This document shows positions 1,923 through 64,000 of a stretch of DNA of 64,000 bases, piece after piece; the stretch's first letter is position 1; every line of letters starts with the position of its first letter. The position numbers were made by a program, and so were the translations under genes. This DNA comes from a virus, in the IMG/VR virus record IMGVR_UViG_3300032931_001151, positions 62,001-126,000 of that record; one strand, 5' to 3'. The notes below the pieces were generated by a model, which ran no database searches, was not told where the DNA came from, and saw only the letters and a program-made list of their open reading frames with translations.

Positions 1923-1958
1923 AATCCCTTTTTGATATAATATATGTAAGAAGGGATT
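1923..1958 (+). promoter_or_regulatory. hairpin with TATAAT in the loop and SD in the 3' arm
   Basis: The arms AATCCCTT (1923-1930) and AAGGGATT (1951-1958) are a perfect 8-bp inverted repeat. The 20-base loop contains TATAAT (1936-1941). The right arm carries AAGGGA, the ribosome site of the gene starting at 1963. No -35 hexamer sits 16-17 bases before the TATAAT. RNA reading in from upstream would pair the ribosome site; RNA starting near 1948 would not. A terminator role is weak here because only three T follow the stem. Confidence 0.6.
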
Positions 1959-3756: not shown

Positions 3757-5943
3757 ATGAAACTCGACTTTGATACTACAATTATTGAAAGATCCGAAGA
3801 CTTTGAGGAGCAAACTTTCGGATTCTCCGATGTTACAATAGTCATGGAAATTCTTAGGTCAAAACTCTATTCAAACCCTATTAAGGTGTTAGTTCAAGAA
3901 TATATGAGTAATGCCCGTGATGCTCATAGAGAAATTGATAATAATCAACCCATTGAAGTTCAATTGCCTTCCCACATTTCGCCACAATTTGAGGTTAGAG
4001 ATTTTGGCCCCGGAATAACACCAAAAAGAATGAGTAACGTATTCATTAAATATGCGGCATCAACAAAGCGAGACTCTAATAAGATGACTGGTGGGTGGGG
4101 ATTAGGATCAAAGAGTGGTTGGAGCTATTCCGACACTTTTAGTGTAATATCTATTACTAACGAAACCGGTGAAAATATTAAAAGAACTTATTCTTGCATC
4201 ATTGATGAAACTCGTAATGGTAAACTCGTGAAAATGTGCGACGACGCAAAAACCGAAGAACCATGTGGTACTCGTATCATTGTGCCGGCTCGTAAAGAAA
4301 ATTTCAATCAATTTAGAGACTATGCGGTTCAAACGGGAACCCTATGGGAAGTGAAACCAATAATTTTTGGCCAAACCATTAATAACCCATCCATCATTAG
4401 CGAAGGTGCTAATTGGAAGTATTTTGAGCGTCACACTGTTCCTACCGACTTTATATCTAATAAAGCATTTGTTGTATATGATGGGATTCCTTATCCTTTA
4501 AAAACCGAAACTTTAAAAAATTTGATTTCGGATGAGGTAATGGCTGTACTAAATAGTTCTTGTTTCGGTCTATATTTTAATATTGGCGATATTACTATCT
4601 CCGCTAACCGTGAGGAAATTCAATATACGGAGAAAACTAAAAACACATTAGCAACCCGAGTAAACGAGATGGTATCCGAGATAGCAAGTAAATTCTCGGA
4701 TACTATTCAACAAGAGCCAACATTCATTGACGCTCTTATGAAGTTTAATGACATTTCTAAAGAGAATGACGTAATCGCCAAACTTATTAGCAATTCGGTT
4801 GAATGGAACGGAACCAAACTCCACCGTATTAACCAACTTAATACTATGGATAAGGCTGTTAAAATTGAAAATTTCTATTACGATGATGGTAAACTATGCC
4901 ATATTAGGAATGCCTATGTACATCTAGAAAATAAAGATAAATTTAAAAAAATCTATATTAATGATGAAAAACTTCGTGGTGCTCCAATTTCTAAAATGCG
5001 TGGGTTGTTTTATTCTAGTTCTAAATCAGACCAGGAATCGTTTGATGTTTATGTTATCTCATATCAAACCAATAACCCCAAAGGTCTATCACAACAAGAA
5101 ATTGATAATGCAAATGTAAGTATTAATAAGTGGAATAAAGAAAACTTTATTGGTTTAATGGATCTACAAACTACATCATCCATCAAAAAATCAATAATCC
5201 CAAAAGGAATTTCTCAACCTAAAGTGATAGGAAAACTTGTAACCTATAGAGAGTTGAAATTAAACGTAGGATCCGATTATGCGGTTACTATAGAACATGA
5301 GGATATTGATAGCACATTAAGCGGATATTATACTCTAATACATGAAGGAAGATTTTCAATTGGAGGATCGAGATACAATATTAGAGATTCGTGGGAAATG
5401 AGAAATCTACACCGTAGATTAAAATTAGTTCTAAGCCACTTAAAAGTTGATAAAATTCTTTTATTTACTCAAAAGTACACGAAAAATATCTCCGAAAATA
5501 AGAATTTAATTCATTTGCCTATAGATATTTCAAAAGATATTGTAAATTCGTTTGATTCTAATAAGATAAAAGAATATACTAAGTATGTTCGTGGAGATAA
5601 AATGTATAATCACGAATTCTTTAAACTACTAAGTCCCATGAAACATATGGATAGATTTAATGTTGGTAGTAAGATTAGAGAGAAGTTAGAGTCAATGTTA
5701 CATAATGAAAAATATATTGCCACTCAAGAATATAAAGAAATGAATTCTTTATATGAAGAATTTAATCACGTTATTAAAGATCTATATAAAGTAGATGGCG
5801 ATTCCACCCAAGACGAAGACTCTTTTTCTAAAAAATATCCGCTTTTATCTGATAGGTATTATGGGTATCATACTAGTAGTAATGAAACATTCGTTGAGCA
5901 TGCGATTAACTATATTAATTTTGTTGACAATGGTAAAAATTGA
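3757..5943 (+). CDS. rIIA: rIIA-like protein (GHKL ATPase fold)
   Basis: 728 residues, almost the length of T4 rIIA (725). The N-terminal third has the GHKL ATP-binding motifs: the N-box QEYMSNARDAH (Glu48, Asn52, Asp55), DFGPGIT (residues 82-88) and GGWGLGSKSGW (112-122). This is the arrangement of rIIA proteins, which in T4 act at the membrane to protect against exclusion by prophages and help time lysis. Residues beyond about 330 are not recognisable from motifs but keep the family length. It is followed at once by rIIB, as in T4, with an rIIB promoter inside its last codons. Confidence 0.88.
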   Translation: MKLDFDTTIIERSEDFEEQTFGFSDVTIVMEILRSKLYSNPIKVLVQEYMSNARDAHREIDNNQPIEVQLPSHISPQFEVRDFGPGITPKRMSNVFIKYAASTKRDSNKMTGGWGLGSKSGWSYSDTFSVISITNETGENIKRTYSCIIDETRNGKLVKMCDDAKTEEPCGTRIIVPARKENFNQFRDYAVQTGTLWEVKPIIFGQTINNPSIISEGANWKYFERHTVPTDFISNKAFVVYDGIPYPLKTETLKNLISDEVMAVLNSSCFGLYFNIGDITISANREEIQYTEKTKNTLATRVNEMVSEIASKFSDTIQQEPTFIDALMKFNDISKENDVIAKLISNSVEWNGTKLHRINQLNTMDKAVKIENFYYDDGKLCHIRNAYVHLENKDKFKKIYINDEKLRGAPISKMRGLFYSSSKSDQESFDVYVISYQTNNPKGLSQQEIDNANVSINKWNKENFIGLMDLQTTSSIKKSIIPKGISQPKVIGKLVTYRELKLNVGSDYAVTIEHEDIDSTLSGYYTLIHEGRFSIGGSRYNIRDSWEMRNLHRRLKLVLSHLKVDKILLFTQKYTKNISENKNLIHLPIDISKDIVNSFDSNKIKEYTKYVRGDKMYNHEFFKLLSPMKHMDRFNVGSKIREKLESMLHNEKYIATQEYKEMNSLYEEFNHVIKDLYKVDGDSTQDEDSFSKKYPLLSDRYYGYHTSSNETFVEHAINYINFVDNGKN

Positions 5944-5951
5944 TATATAAT
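5924..5951 (+). promoter_or_regulatory. consensus sigma70 promoter for rIIB
   Basis: A perfect TTGACA (5924-5929), 16-base spacer, and perfect TATAAT (5946-5951), straddling the end of rIIA. The rIIB start is 27 bases downstream with ribosome site TAGGAGA. It would give rIIB its own transcript. Confidence 0.75.
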
Positions 5952-5977: not shown

Positions 5978-6958
5978 ATGAGATATCTTATAACCCCCAA
6001 ATGCATTTCTTTAAATTACGATGGAAATACTAAAGTAGTTGAGAAAACGGATAGTCGTTTCCAACCAATTATAGACGCCATTAAAGCCAAAAACTTTGAC
6101 GTAATTCCCGGAATTATTGATGGACTTAAAAACGCCATTGCAACTAGTACAAATAAGGATTTTAAAGTTGATAATGGTTTAGTATATATTGATAATAAAT
6201 CAGTTGGTGGTAGAATTAGCGAAAAGATCGTTGAGTATGTAAATGCTGGACTAGATCCAATTAGCCTTGTTAATTTTTGGAGGAATTTACAATTAAATCC
6301 TTCATATAGAGCAAGAGAGGCGTTATTTTCCTTCCTTGAAAATGGGAATCATCCTATTACGGACGATGGGCACTTTATCGCATATAAGAAAGTACGAAGC
6401 AATATGAAAGACGGTCATAATGGGACTTTTGATAACTCTGTTGGGGCTAAACCATCAATGCCACGAGATCAAGTTGACGACGATCCGACACACACTTGCG
6501 CTCCAGGGCTGCATGTGGCGTCCTGGGAGTATGCACAAAACTATAGTGGAACGGTTCTTATTGATTGTAAGGTAAATCCCATGAATGTCGTTGCCGTCCC
6601 AATTGATTATAATTTTATGAAGATGCGTACTTGTGGATATGAAGTTATTGCCGTGGCTAAAGAGAAAAGGCAAGAGCTACATATTAGCGACAATAAAGAT
6701 ATTACTAGCGATGACGCTACGGATATTGATCCTGATGATATAAATCTAAATGATAATAATGAAGATTTTGACTATAATAATATGGATAATGTTGACTACC
6801 AACAAGGCGTGGACGACGCTAACGCTTTGATAACTTACTTCAAGTCAATTGGAAGAGAATATACTTACGACGAGTTCATTGAACTAAAGAGATTTGAGAA
6901 TAAATCGGATAGTTACAAATGTGGAATTGAGGAAGTGGCAGACGAAAAACTATCTTAA
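5978..6958 (+). CDS. rIIB: rIIB-like protein
   Basis: 326 residues, close to T4 rIIB (312). The conserved rIIB core is clear: LFSFLENGNHPITDDGHFIA with YKKVRSNMKDGHNGTFDNSVG, then CAPGLHVASWEYAQNY and the beta run NPMNVVAVPIDYNFMKMRTCGYEVIAV. After about residue 245 comes a very acidic linker (DDATDIDPDDINLNDNNEDFDYNNMDN) and a short helical tail. RIIB works with RIIA in membrane-linked resistance to exclusion systems. A hairpin terminator follows its stop. Confidence 0.88.
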   Translation: MRYLITPKCISLNYDGNTKVVEKTDSRFQPIIDAIKAKNFDVIPGIIDGLKNAIATSTNKDFKVDNGLVYIDNKSVGGRISEKIVEYVNAGLDPISLVNFWRNLQLNPSYRAREALFSFLENGNHPITDDGHFIAYKKVRSNMKDGHNGTFDNSVGAKPSMPRDQVDDDPTHTCAPGLHVASWEYAQNYSGTVLIDCKVNPMNVVAVPIDYNFMKMRTCGYEVIAVAKEKRQELHISDNKDITSDDATDIDPDDINLNDNNEDFDYNNMDNVDYQQGVDDANALITYFKSIGREYTYDEFIELKRFENKSDSYKCGIEEVADEKLS

Positions 6959-6975
6959 ATTTAAGTAGATTTTGG

Positions 6976-7011
6976 AATCCCCTTGGGTATAATTACTCAA
7001 GGGGATTTTTT
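6976..7011 (+). terminator. rho-independent terminator with TATAAT in the loop and SD in the 3' arm
   Basis: Perfect 10-bp stem AATCCCCTTG (6976-6985) / CAAGGGGATT (6998-7007) with a T run to 7011: a canonical terminator for the rII operon. The 12-base loop contains TATAAT (6988-6993), and the descending arm contains AAGGGG, the only ribosome site for the ATG at 7012. Full-length RNA both terminates and hides the ribosome site; RNA started about seven bases after the loop box would have neither problem, though its leader would be very short. Confidence 0.8.
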
Positions 7012-7677
7012 ATGGAAAATATTATTGAAATTGAGTTAAATCCGGAATTTCATATAAGCAAATTTCTAACCACTAACGTTAGAAAGTTGGCATTGTACAT
7101 TCCTACTATTGATCAATTAATGCCAACCGAAAGTAACTATTTTGGTCTAAAGGAGATGACATATGGTAATATCATATTAGATCAAGAAAGCGGATTGGTG
7201 GCTTTAACGGTTAGACAATTCTTTAAAGCATTACTTTCAAATATGCCATATGCGTATGAAATCGCTTGCACTCCCCATTCCAATATAGTAGCGGATTCCC
7301 AATTAGGATTTGAAATATTAAATTTCGGAAAAACCCATCTTATTTCTAAGCCCATTATAGATAAGTACTTAAAAAGCTTCACAGAAGATAAAATAACGGG
7401 GAATTATACAAGAGCATATAGAATCGGAACCGTTCTAAAGAGATTGTATAGAGGATTAAGAACTACCGAAATGACGAACGAAGAAACCGAATTATATAAC
7501 CACTTATTAAGTGATACCGTTAAATTAGAAGATATTGAATTTTCTTTAACGCATATGGATGTTGAATTCCAATCTATTGAGCCTACTATAAACTATAATG
7601 ATATATTTCCACCAATTGATATAAATTACATAAATCAATTTTTAATTCAAACCCATAAGGATTACTTAAAACTATGA
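7012..7677 (+). CDS. hypothetical protein, possible degenerate nucleotidyltransferase
   Basis: A 221-residue protein. The stretch SGLVALTVRQFFKALLSNMPYAYEIACTP and the later YTRAYRIGTVLKRLYRGLRTTEM resemble the body of phage/bacterial DNA-polymerase-beta-type nucleotidyltransferases (RlaP/YcgL-like, which have D.T..sl..F...L..gNP...E and K...H..RLL...e.L...G). The N-terminal catalytic GS...SDiD signature is not seen, so if related it has lost activity. The match is by eye and weak. Its translation is set by the hairpin at 6976-7011. The next gene overlaps by four bases (ATGA). Confidence 0.45.
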   Translation: MENIIEIELNPEFHISKFLTTNVRKLALYIPTIDQLMPTESNYFGLKEMTYGNIILDQESGLVALTVRQFFKALLSNMPYAYEIACTPHSNIVADSQLGFEILNFGKTHLISKPIIDKYLKSFTEDKITGNYTRAYRIGTVLKRLYRGLRTTEMTNEETELYNHLLSDTVKLEDIEFSLTHMDVEFQSIEPTINYNDIFPPIDINYINQFLIQTHKDYLKL

Positions 7678-8000
7678 CATTAGAAGAAGATGTTACTTGG
7701 ATTATGGAGAGATGTCCGAAATTAAACTCTTTAGCCGTTTTAGAGCCATCAGCACAAGCAATTGCTATTATGTTGGCAATCGGGGGAAATAACCCCTTCA
7801 ATGAACAAGAAATGGCTAAACTATCGCTTGTTGGCATCATAGCCATGCATTGCCGCAAAATAGATGAAGAAAGATTTCAAACGTTGTCTCCTTACGCTTA
7901 CTTACAAATTGCCAACGCTTATATAGATGAAAATGATACATCGGGGGTTAATTATAAGGAACTCGTAAATAAAATTAAAAATATTATAAAGTTAATTTAA
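7674..8000 (+). CDS. hypothetical protein, 108 aa
   Basis: A 108-residue, mainly helical protein (MTLEEDVTWIMERCPKLNSL...). It has an Ala-rich hydrophobic middle (PSAQAIAIMLAIGG) that is probably buried helix rather than a membrane span. The start overlaps the previous stop in an ATGA junction. No recognised family. Confidence 0.6.
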   Translation: MTLEEDVTWIMERCPKLNSLAVLEPSAQAIAIMLAIGGNNPFNEQEMAKLSLVGIIAMHCRKIDEERFQTLSPYAYLQIANAYIDENDTSGVNYKELVNKIKNIIKLI

Positions 8001-8028: not shown

Positions 8029-8334
8029 ATGGATAATTTTTCTACTTGGTACTACAATAATAAGAATAAAAAAGTTGACGTATCAATGGCACCATCAGAA
8101 AAGATGTTTTTTGATGTTGTTGGTATAAAAATTCCATCTCTTAAGGCTTTCATATCTTGGTTAATATTGAAGAAATTGATTAATCCAATAATTAAAGAAA
8201 AAGATAAGAAAACATTGAATTTATTGTCCTTACCGGTTGAAAAAAAAGTTCATTATCTCGTTAGTAAATTGAAAGATATAGATAAACTAGCTAATGAGTA
8301 TAATAAAATATTTGGGGAATCGCCCAAAGAATAA
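8029..8334 (+). CDS. hypothetical protein, 101 aa
   Basis: A basic 101-residue protein (MDNFSTWYYNNKNKKVDVSM...). The hydrophobic stretch LKAFISWLILKKLI, around residues 45-58, is too short and charged at its end for a clear membrane span. Ribosome site TTAGGAGA. No recognised family. Confidence 0.6.
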   Translation: MDNFSTWYYNNKNKKVDVSMAPSEKMFFDVVGIKIPSLKAFISWLILKKLINPIIKEKDKKTLNLLSLPVEKKVHYLVSKLKDIDKLANEYNKIFGESPKE

Positions 8335-45399: not shown

Positions 45400-46035
45400 T
45401 TATTTGACTATACTAATATCATCATTATCTAAAGAAACATTATTCCAATCTTGGATTATTTTTCTAGTAACAACTCTACCGTTAATCATGGTATCAAAAT
45501 ATGCGGCGACTTGTAGTATCCCATTCACAACCCTAGTTTCAGTTTGAAAATATCCTTCGGATTGTGTACTCTTTATTGGAAAAGTATCACTTGGTTTATC
45601 TACTATTCCCAAATTAGCACTAATTCTTTTAGAAGTTTCTTCGTCTACTTTATATTCTCCTGGAATATTCTCCGGAATCTTAACTGGGCCTGATATATAT
45701 CCGTGTATATCAGTCATACATTCATATTCTTTTTCCAAATCAGCAATAGAATTTGAACCCGTTGCTTTTTTTGTAGATGCTAATAAAGTGTTATATTTCT
45801 CAAGAAGTACCTTGATTTCACCGTCTTTATCATTAAGTTTACTTTCAAGCACCTTATTAGCATCTTTTAAGATTGCAACTTCTTCATTAGTATGGGCTTC
45901 TAGATCGGATCCATGAGTAAGATTACTTACGAATTTTATTATTCCACCCTGAGAAGTAATATTAGAATAAATTTCTTTATCTTTAAGGGCCGATGTTAAT
46001 ATTGAATTATATAATTCTTGGGGTATGTCTAACAT
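45400..46035 (-). CDS. hypothetical late protein with coiled coil, 211 aa
   Basis: 211 residues. Residues about 60-95 (EVAILKDANKVLESKLNDKD followed by GEIKVLLEKYNTLLAS) form a coiled coil; the C-terminal half is beta-type (YFQTETRVVNGILQVAAYFD, then TMINGRVVTRKIIQDW). The ribosome site AAGGAGA lies in the 3' arm of the 17-bp hairpin at 46042-46082. First gene of the late baseplate block; a virion or assembly role is inferred from position. Confidence 0.6.
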   Translation of the reverse strand: MLDIPQELYNSILTSALKDKEIYSNITSQGGIIKFVSNLTHGSDLEAHTNEEVAILKDANKVLESKLNDKDGEIKVLLEKYNTLLASTKKATGSNSIADLEKEYECMTDIHGYISGPVKIPENIPGEYKVDEETSKRISANLGIVDKPSDTFPIKSTQSEGYFQTETRVVNGILQVAAYFDTMINGRVVTRKIIQDWNNVSLDNDDISIVK

Positions 46036-46041
46036 ATAAGA

Positions 46042-46082
46042 AATCTCCTTCGTGATATGACTATTATATCACGAAGGAGATT
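46042..46082 (-). promoter_or_regulatory. 17-bp hairpin with TATAAT at the loop and SD in the 3' arm
   Basis: AATCTCCTTCGTGATAT (46042-46058) and ATATCACGAAGGAGATT (46066-46082) pair perfectly over 17 bp with a 7-base loop. On the - strand the loop edge reads TATAAT (46068 to 46063), without a -35 hexamer, and the 3' arm holds AAGGAGA, the ribosome site of the gene starting at 46035. RNA from the HNH gene upstream would lock the ribosome site away; RNA started near 46056 would expose it. Confidence 0.78.
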
Positions 46083-46088
46083 AACTTT

Positions 46089-46622
46089 TCACCAAAGATT
46101 TACATTATTCTCTTTAAGCCAATCAATCCAATTTGACCTCTCAACCGATGAGACTCCTTTAATATAAACGGCAAGCCTTTCACTATCACTTAGCTCTTTT
46201 GGTTGGAATCCCATTTTTAATCCGGCTTGATCGGGTGTACGGTTGCTCTTTTTTGTGTTGCAATTTTTACAAGTCGCAACTATATTAAAACTTTTATTGG
46301 GTCCATTTTGACCTAATGGAATTATATGATCTCTATTTCCATTTTTAATAGTTAATTTACATCCACAATAGCAGCAAGTATATGAATCTCTAGCAAGAAT
46401 GTATCGGAGAGATGTAGAAGCATTTCTTCTTCTTTTTGAAACATCTTTGTATTTCTTTAGAACAATGATACTAGGAACTTTCCAAGTACAAAATTGTGAT
46501 CTCATTACTTTATCGTAAGCATGAACAATTTCAGCTTTTCCTTCAAGATACATTACAAGAGCATCAAAGCTATTTATTATGTTAATATAGGTGTAGTCGG
46601 CATTAAGTACGAGCGAACGCAT
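46089..46622 (-). CDS. HNH endonuclease
   Basis: 177 residues. The HNH core with two zinc-binding CxxC pairs is clear: YTCCYCGCKL (Cys83, Cys86), NRDHIIPLGQNGPNKSFNIV (Asp98-His99) and CKNCNTKKSNRTP (Cys118, Cys121). The N-terminal part (MRSLVLNADYTYINIINSFD with ALVMYLEGKAEIVHAYDKV) is the one typical of the MRS-L-NAdy family of phage and bacterial HNH nucleases. Likely a free-standing homing endonuclease or packaging-associated nuclease; position among homing-type genes favours the first. It has its own consensus promoter. Confidence 0.85.
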   Translation of the reverse strand: MRSLVLNADYTYINIINSFDALVMYLEGKAEIVHAYDKVMRSQFCTWKVPSIIVLKKYKDVSKRRRNASTSLRYILARDSYTCCYCGCKLTIKNGNRDHIIPLGQNGPNKSFNIVATCKNCNTKKSNRTPDQAGLKMGFQPKELSDSERLAVYIKGVSSVERSNWIDWLKENNVNLW

Positions 46623-63294: not shown

Positions 63295-64000
63295 TTAACT
63301 ACCTTTAAGTTGTGAATTAGAGGATAAGGTACTTATCCTTGGTATAAAGTTATTTATCCGTTTAGAATCTATTAAGAAGTATGAATCTCTAACTAATTCA
63401 ATCTCGGATACGGCTTTACCACTTGAGGATATCTTATCGGTAATACTCCATATAACCCAATCCCCCGAATTCATTAAGTCTATCCCAACCGATTTATCGG
63501 AACTTGGTAATGTTATATTTACTTTTTCTCCTGGATTTCTAAATTCATTTGCATAGGAATATATAACTATTCTATTTGCTCCAAGCATTATTCTTTTACT
63601 ATATAAATTTCTAAAGTAGTTTTGTACTTGATTTGTATCATATGAGGTAGCACCCATAAATGTATTGTTAATGGAAGACCATTGATTTCCCCAAGATTTC
63701 TTATTTGCTTCCTTTTGATACACACTCCACATGCCCAATCCAGAATATGATTGTAAGAAATTCTCAAATGTGGTTGAGAAATATGAAGTTCCCCCTATTG
63801 CATCTCTACCTACAATAGTTTCCCCATTCATACCAAAGAAAAGCATACTACCATCGAATGATTTTTGCATTCTACCTAAAATAACATCTTGAGGACTATA
63901 ATCTTTGTCTTTTCCATCGGCTGGAGATTTGAATTGTTGTGGAGTTGTATTTTCCGTGCCCGGAGTAGGATCACGGAGCATTTGGTCAGATCTTTGAGAA
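63295..64000 (-). CDS. partial virion protein, C-terminal part, gene continues past the window
   Basis: The reading frame stays open to the window edge: codons before the internal ATG at 63981 continue without stop to 64000, and that ATG has no ribosome site, so this is probably the C-terminal 230-odd residues of a longer protein. GDWVIWSITDKISSSGKAVS followed by EIELVRDSYFL fits the end of baseplate-hub-type proteins (sG.yli..i.h......y.t.l.l.rds). YFSTTFENFLQSYSGLGMWS is unrecognised. Baseplate or tail role is tentative. Confidence 0.5.
   Translation of the reverse strand, partial: SQRSDQMLRDPTPGTENTTPQQFKSPADGKDKDYSPQDVILGRMQKSFDGSMLFFGMNGETIVGRDAIGGTSYFSTTFENFLQSYSGLGMWSVYQKEANKKSWGNQWSSINNTFMGATSYDTNQVQNYFRNLYSKRIMLGANRIVIYSYANEFRNPGEKVNITLPSSDKSVGIDLMNSGDWVIWSITDKISSSGKAVSEIELVRDSYFLIDSKRINNFIPRISTLSSNSQLKGS

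Follow-up and report, generated by a model that had tools for sequence, protein, structure and literature searches.

The 53 bases that separate rIIB from the next gene of a 214,200-bp phage genome (IMG/VR record IMGVR_UViG_3300032931_001151; GC content 32%) house a hairpin, a TATAAT hexamer, a Shine-Dalgarno (SD) sequence and a T run, which together appear to form a composite insulator (6975-7011): read-through RNA would be terminated or kept from translation, whereas RNA that begins within the element would expose the SD. We put the probability of this reading at roughly 60%. From the sequence, the predicted structure, the terminator score, the predicted accessibility of the SD and the recurrence of the arrangement, we infer termination, initiation near 7000 and the outcome for expression. 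Positions are those of the window, the 64,000-nucleotide stretch analysed (bases 62001-126000 of the record), except where genome positions are given (Table 1); the gene behind the hairpin is called the 7012 gene.

Table 1. Coordinates of the insulator candidate, its neighbours and related elements
Feature	Position	Strand	Remarks
rIIA	window 3757-5943		PHROGs E 5e-87
rIIB, co-directional gene 5' of the hairpin	window 5978-6958	+	PHROG RIIB, E 2.8e-62
Hairpin	window 6975..7008	+	about 14-15 pairs, 6975-6989 with 6994-7008; loop TAAT 6990-6993
TATAAT, -10-like hexamer at hairpin apex	window 6988..6993	+	predicted start ~7000
SD AAGGGG in right arm	window 6999..7004	+	7 nt 5' of ATG 7012
TTTTTT, putative terminator T run and SD-ATG spacer	window 7006..7011	+	abuts ATG, partly within right arm
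7012 gene, 221-aa ORFan behind hairpin	window 7012-7677	+	overlaps next ORF 7674-8000
Sister SD hairpin AATCCCTTTTT/AAGAAGGGATT, TATAAT inside	window 1923..1958	+	before ORF 1963-2217 (genome 63963+); not terminator-like
Sister SD hairpin AATCTCCTTCGT/ACGAAGGAGATT, TATAAT inside	window 46042..46082	-	before ORF 45400-46035 (genome 108035-); weakly terminator-like
Gene starts of the eight best SD hairpins	genome 69012, 205855, 108035, 211471, 8323, 63963, 56169, 166033	+, +, -, +, -, +, +, -
TTTTTGGA-N2-TATAnT sites	genome 143935, 166082, 168156, 174360, 181093, 183027	-, -, +, +, +, +
Near-identical 55-bp cassettes before different genes in two related IMG/VR phages	L095/L100, L096/L099, L097/L098

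The mechanism that we propose has two branches. RNA arriving from the rII genes would fold the hairpin, and RNA polymerase would stop at the T run; any RNA that read through would keep the SD of the 7012 gene buried and would not be translated there. RNA polymerase starting at the apex -10 would instead make RNA from about position 7000, which, because the left arm is missing, would neither terminate nor hide the SD, and the 7012 gene would be translated.

The hairpin is built around a perfect 10-bp core, in which AATCCCCTTG (6976-6985) pairs base for base with CAAGGGGATT (6998-7007). The minimum free energy of 6940-7060 is -31.4 kcal/mol (z -3.7), and none of 200 shuffles was as good. A preliminary description of this DNA had recognised a canonical terminator with a 10-bp stem after rIIB, whose right arm is the only ribosome site of the next gene and whose T run leads directly into the ATG. 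This is borne out, except that the stem is longer. AAGGGG is the sole SD before the ATG, and the GC-rich stem with a T run immediately after it is that of a predicted intrinsic terminator by sequence and by score (d=32.8, where six stand-alone terminators of the same genome score 19-55); a generic terminator scan did not pick up this hairpin. The description also had TATAAT in the loop: the hexamer does lie within the hairpin, but it overlaps the apex and does not sit in an open 12-nt loop, because the fold has 15 pairs and the loop is only TAAT. In the folding model, the SD core is unpaired with a probability of 0.00 in read-through RNA versus 0.56 in RNA started at 7000. Translational coupling from rIIB was considered and rejected; the rIIB stop precedes the ATG by 53 nt and the hairpin by 16-17 nt, and a ribosome that terminates there would not be expected to unfold the hairpin.

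The 221-aa product of the 7012 gene has no match in Pfam, among PHROGs or by tblastn against phages. No close relative of the phage or the locus was found by DNA or protein search, and phages with related rIIB genes (approximately 40% identity) carry intergenic structures that differ from this hairpin. A 12/12 consensus promoter, TTGACA-16-TATAAT, lies at 5924-5951, overlapping the end of rIIA and directly upstream of rIIB.

The apex TATAAT has no consensus -35 (GTAGAT stands at 17 nt, and the best match, 3/6, at 16 nt) and no TGn extended -10. Because the consensus -35 is missing, we can only infer an internal promoter here. The hexamer is nonetheless placed so that its predicted RNA would be free of the left arm, with a leader of about 12 nt and the SD at its extreme 5' end. 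TATAAT alone is not significant, as 37-53% of other intergenic upstream regions have a -10 in the equivalent interval. The proposal that the 7012 gene is on only from this promoter is plausible and fits the class described below, but the absent -35 and TGn and the short leader count against it. The companion proposal, that the gene stays silent in rII read-through RNA, is a prediction that structure and recurrence support well.

Other promoter types were sought at the site. The phage's early class, TTGACT-17-TATAAT, was rejected, there being no -35 at 16-18 nt from the hexamer. The motif TTTTTGGA-N2-TATAnT was also rejected: TTTTGGA is present at 6970-6976, but 2 nt on stands the hexamer CCCCTT, with TATAAT at a distance of 11 nt. 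The T4-type late promoter TATAAATA is absent at the 7012 site, where TATAATTA is found instead; a gp55-type late sigma factor is encoded elsewhere in the record, and a late-sigma reading of TATAATTA is possible, though off consensus. A search for the gp33 family had no hit anywhere and is uninformative. Elsewhere in the genome, TTTTTGGA-N2-TATAnT recurs at 33-64 nt before gene starts that lie for the most part in the structural/replication half, and probably represents an additional class of promoter in this phage.

These features invite the explanation that the hairpin sequesters the ribosome-binding site and terminates transcription, with no working internal promoter, the TATAAT being a chance occurrence in AT-rich DNA and the 7012 operon being held at a low level and expressed by leaky read-through or opening of the hairpin. 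The lack of a -35 and of TGn, the frequency of -10 hexamers in equivalent intervals and the strong terminator score all suit it. We consider it rather unlikely, since it offers no way for the 7012 gene to be expressed and is at odds with the -10 in every SD hairpin of this genome and with the full consensus promoters of the cross-phage versions, both described below.

We called 256 genes across the whole record, gene starts in the phage records being derived partly from our own caller, and carried out a blind search for hairpins with a right arm that spans the SD zone. Seven SD-sequestering hairpins score at least 22, where 0.27 are expected (200 dinucleotide shuffles, at most two in any). The hairpin at genome position 69012, which is the 7012 site of the window, tops the genome-wide list; when the sequences at all gene starts were dinucleotide-shuffled 200 times, no hairpin equalled its score. 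The observed hairpins that contain a -10 number seven, versus 0.015 in the shuffles. When a weaker eighth is included, all eight have TATAAT or TATAAATA (the latter in three sister elements) inside the hairpin or at its edge; the corresponding chance frequencies, 37-53% each in other intergenic starts, give a product of 0.0018. The preceding gene is co-directional in 8/8, versus 75 of the 107 starts with a gap of at least 30. The 7012 site, which had been taken as an isolated oddity, is thus part of a class that extends across this genome and, as shown below, to other phages.

The sisters are not uniform. In most of the models the SD becomes free when RNA begins at the -10. Modelled RNA started at the -10 raises the unpaired probability of the SD core to 0.87 at 63963 and from 0.16 to 0.97 at 166033, whereas the SD at 205855 is still paired in the shortened RNA and that at 8323 barely changes. 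Only 69012, 205855 and, weakly, 108035 are terminator-like; the other five are not. Judged by sequence, the common property in this phage is SD sequestration with a putative internal -10, and the terminator tail is something extra. A simple intrinsic terminator that ends the rII operon, whose right arm doubles as the SD by chance and whose silencing is an unselected by-product, would account for a score like those of stand-alone terminators, and some other phages do have terminators after rIIB. It fits poorly with sister elements most of which sequester the SD without being terminators, and with the polarity of the hairpins at gene starts, which is always that of the SD: none whose right arm is without GG scores 20 or more. 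We regard it as improbable.

HNH endonuclease-like genes account for two of the eight genes behind SD hairpins (genome 205855-206163 and 211471-212097, both on the + strand), recalling the ribosome-site hairpins of homing endonucleases in T4-like phages. The upstream neighbour of the sister hairpin at 46042..46082 is also an HNH gene (46089-46622). The gene at genome position 8323 (- strand) is that of a papain-like cysteine protease (PF00112, E 8e-14), and the SD hairpin in front of it contains the late promoter TATAAATA.

Recurrence in other phages was examined by searching IMG/VR for the exact arms ATCCCCTT/AAGGGGAT and ATCTCCTT/AAGGAGAT around TATAAT, with a scrambled -10 (TAATAT) between the first arm pair as the control, so that the cross-phage sample is defined by two arm sequences. 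The raw counts (TATAAT 8, control 7) do not separate; only two features that were not part of the search pattern do. An ATG follows the right arm by 3-7 nt in 27 of 65 matches, versus 0/7 in the control, and 19 of those 27 have a -35 of at least 5/6 at 16-18 nt, again versus 0/7. The usual layout is TTGACA followed by the anti-SD arm as the promoter spacer. The 37 distinct gene starts (either orientation), which are not all independent and one of which (L083) derives from the control pattern, lead into 24 unrelated families of downstream proteins, and in 17 of these families the promoter reaches at least 10/12. A T run of at least five separates SD and ATG at 20 of the 37 hairpin starts, versus 0/11 starts that have this SD but no hairpin (p=0.0012). 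In these loci, 3/7 hairpins built from other arms have a 12/12 promoter; among other starts, 35 of 740 reach at least 10/12.

Two related phages, G001 and G002, provide a finer comparison. Across five different arm sequences pairing is always kept, and neither TTGACA nor TATAAT varies. Between the two phages, matching cassettes share 93-98% identity, with different genes behind three of the four and dissimilar upstream flanks, as expected of recombination cassettes; the three near-identical pairs in Table 1 are a sign of module shuffling at the cassette. Repeated cassettes as recombination boundaries were seen for G001 and G002 only; the phage studied here has no close relative in which to see them.

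Several known systems resemble this arrangement in part. Work by Arbiol in 2010 and Comeau in 2014 reportedly described the PeSL (promoter-early stem-loop) of T4-like phages, lying between genes with its -10 within the stem-loop. Like a PeSL, the element at the 7012 site is a putative promoter-terminator stem-loop between genes, with a predicted terminator score (above) in keeping with that role, and its cross-phage versions lie at module boundaries. A PeSL has a strong sigma70-like promoter, with -35 and -10; the cross-phage versions have both, whereas the 7012 site has no -35. In the sequence of RB49, stem and -10 overlap and the SD lies outside the stem, whereas here the right arm is the SD. 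PeSLs are promoter-terminator cassettes that are reported to mediate shuffling in T4-like phages, in work cited in PMC4503421. In T4 itself, hairpins at e, soc, 49 and I-TevI silence early read-through RNA and are bypassed by late promoters (PMC3014915). The 7012 site shares with these an SD that is buried in upstream RNA according to the folding model. Their promoter, within or beside the hairpin, gives RNA without the left arm, and the TATAAT of the 7012 site is placed so that it might do likewise, albeit with no -35; the site differs in having TATAAT and a terminator-scoring hairpin where the T4 e type has the late promoter TATAAATA and no terminator T run. Applied to annotated T4 starts, our search recovered e, 49 and I-TevII, cases documented or predicted previously (PMC3014915). 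The same search found early-type promoter sequences inside SD-sequestering hairpins at T4 regB, denV and alc (NC_000866). We found no description of this last arrangement in the literature.

Fold-back inhibition of a similar kind operates at IS10 and IS50, where the terminal repeat prevents translation of transposase read-through RNA but leaves RNA made by the element itself translatable; these are transposon ends, for which no terminator role is claimed. In Bacillus subtilis sigG, a hairpin that blocks the ribosome-binding site occurs only in upstream-operon RNA, since RNA that the promoter of sigG itself produces is unable to form it (PMC5942855), a logic shared with the 7012 site, although sigG is bacterial, its hairpin has 20+ bp, and fusion to a terminator tail is not reported in that paper. 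A post-transcriptional site, at which an RNase processes the RNA or a phage protein makes the SD accessible or blocks it, in the manner of RegB or gene 32/43 control in T4, has precedents in RegB cleavage of early T4 SDs and in operator hairpins on some T4 mRNAs (PMC3014915), but is very improbable, because across phages the hairpin goes with a promoter and not with a cleavage or binding motif, and because all Rfam matches are below the gathering score, so that no known RNA family could be assigned.

Returning to the composite insulator, we note that the missing -35 and TGn, the commonness of TATAAT, the 12-nt leader, the five non-terminators among the eight sisters and the SDs not freed at 205855 and 8323 all count against it. 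On its sequence, the element, like its fuller versions in other phages, is a fusion of putative terminator, candidate promoter and SD in one palindrome, combining the ideas of the T4 e-type hairpin and the PeSL; the original PeSL papers may already mention that the SD is part of the fusion.

There is, we judge, about an even chance that these elements are a widespread class of phage cassette of approximately 45-60 bp. In such a cassette the anti-SD would serve as promoter spacer, the loop would contain the -10, the right arm would provide the SD, and the terminator T run would space SD and ATG. The three functions would then be inseparable within one palindrome, which would shield exchangeable genes from their neighbours and travel as a boundary for shuffling; the rII/7012 site would belong to the class but lack a -35 or use another sigma factor. 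This suggests that phages have solved the insulation of "plug-in" genes with a single palindrome, and that a gene preceded by one of these cassettes, wherever it has landed, is silent in transcripts of any operon upstream and active from a start of its own. If true, it would help to explain how ORFans shuffle between operons without mistimed expression, would provide a sequence signature for finding insulated genes, and would represent a compact natural design with insulator, promoter and ribosome site in one.
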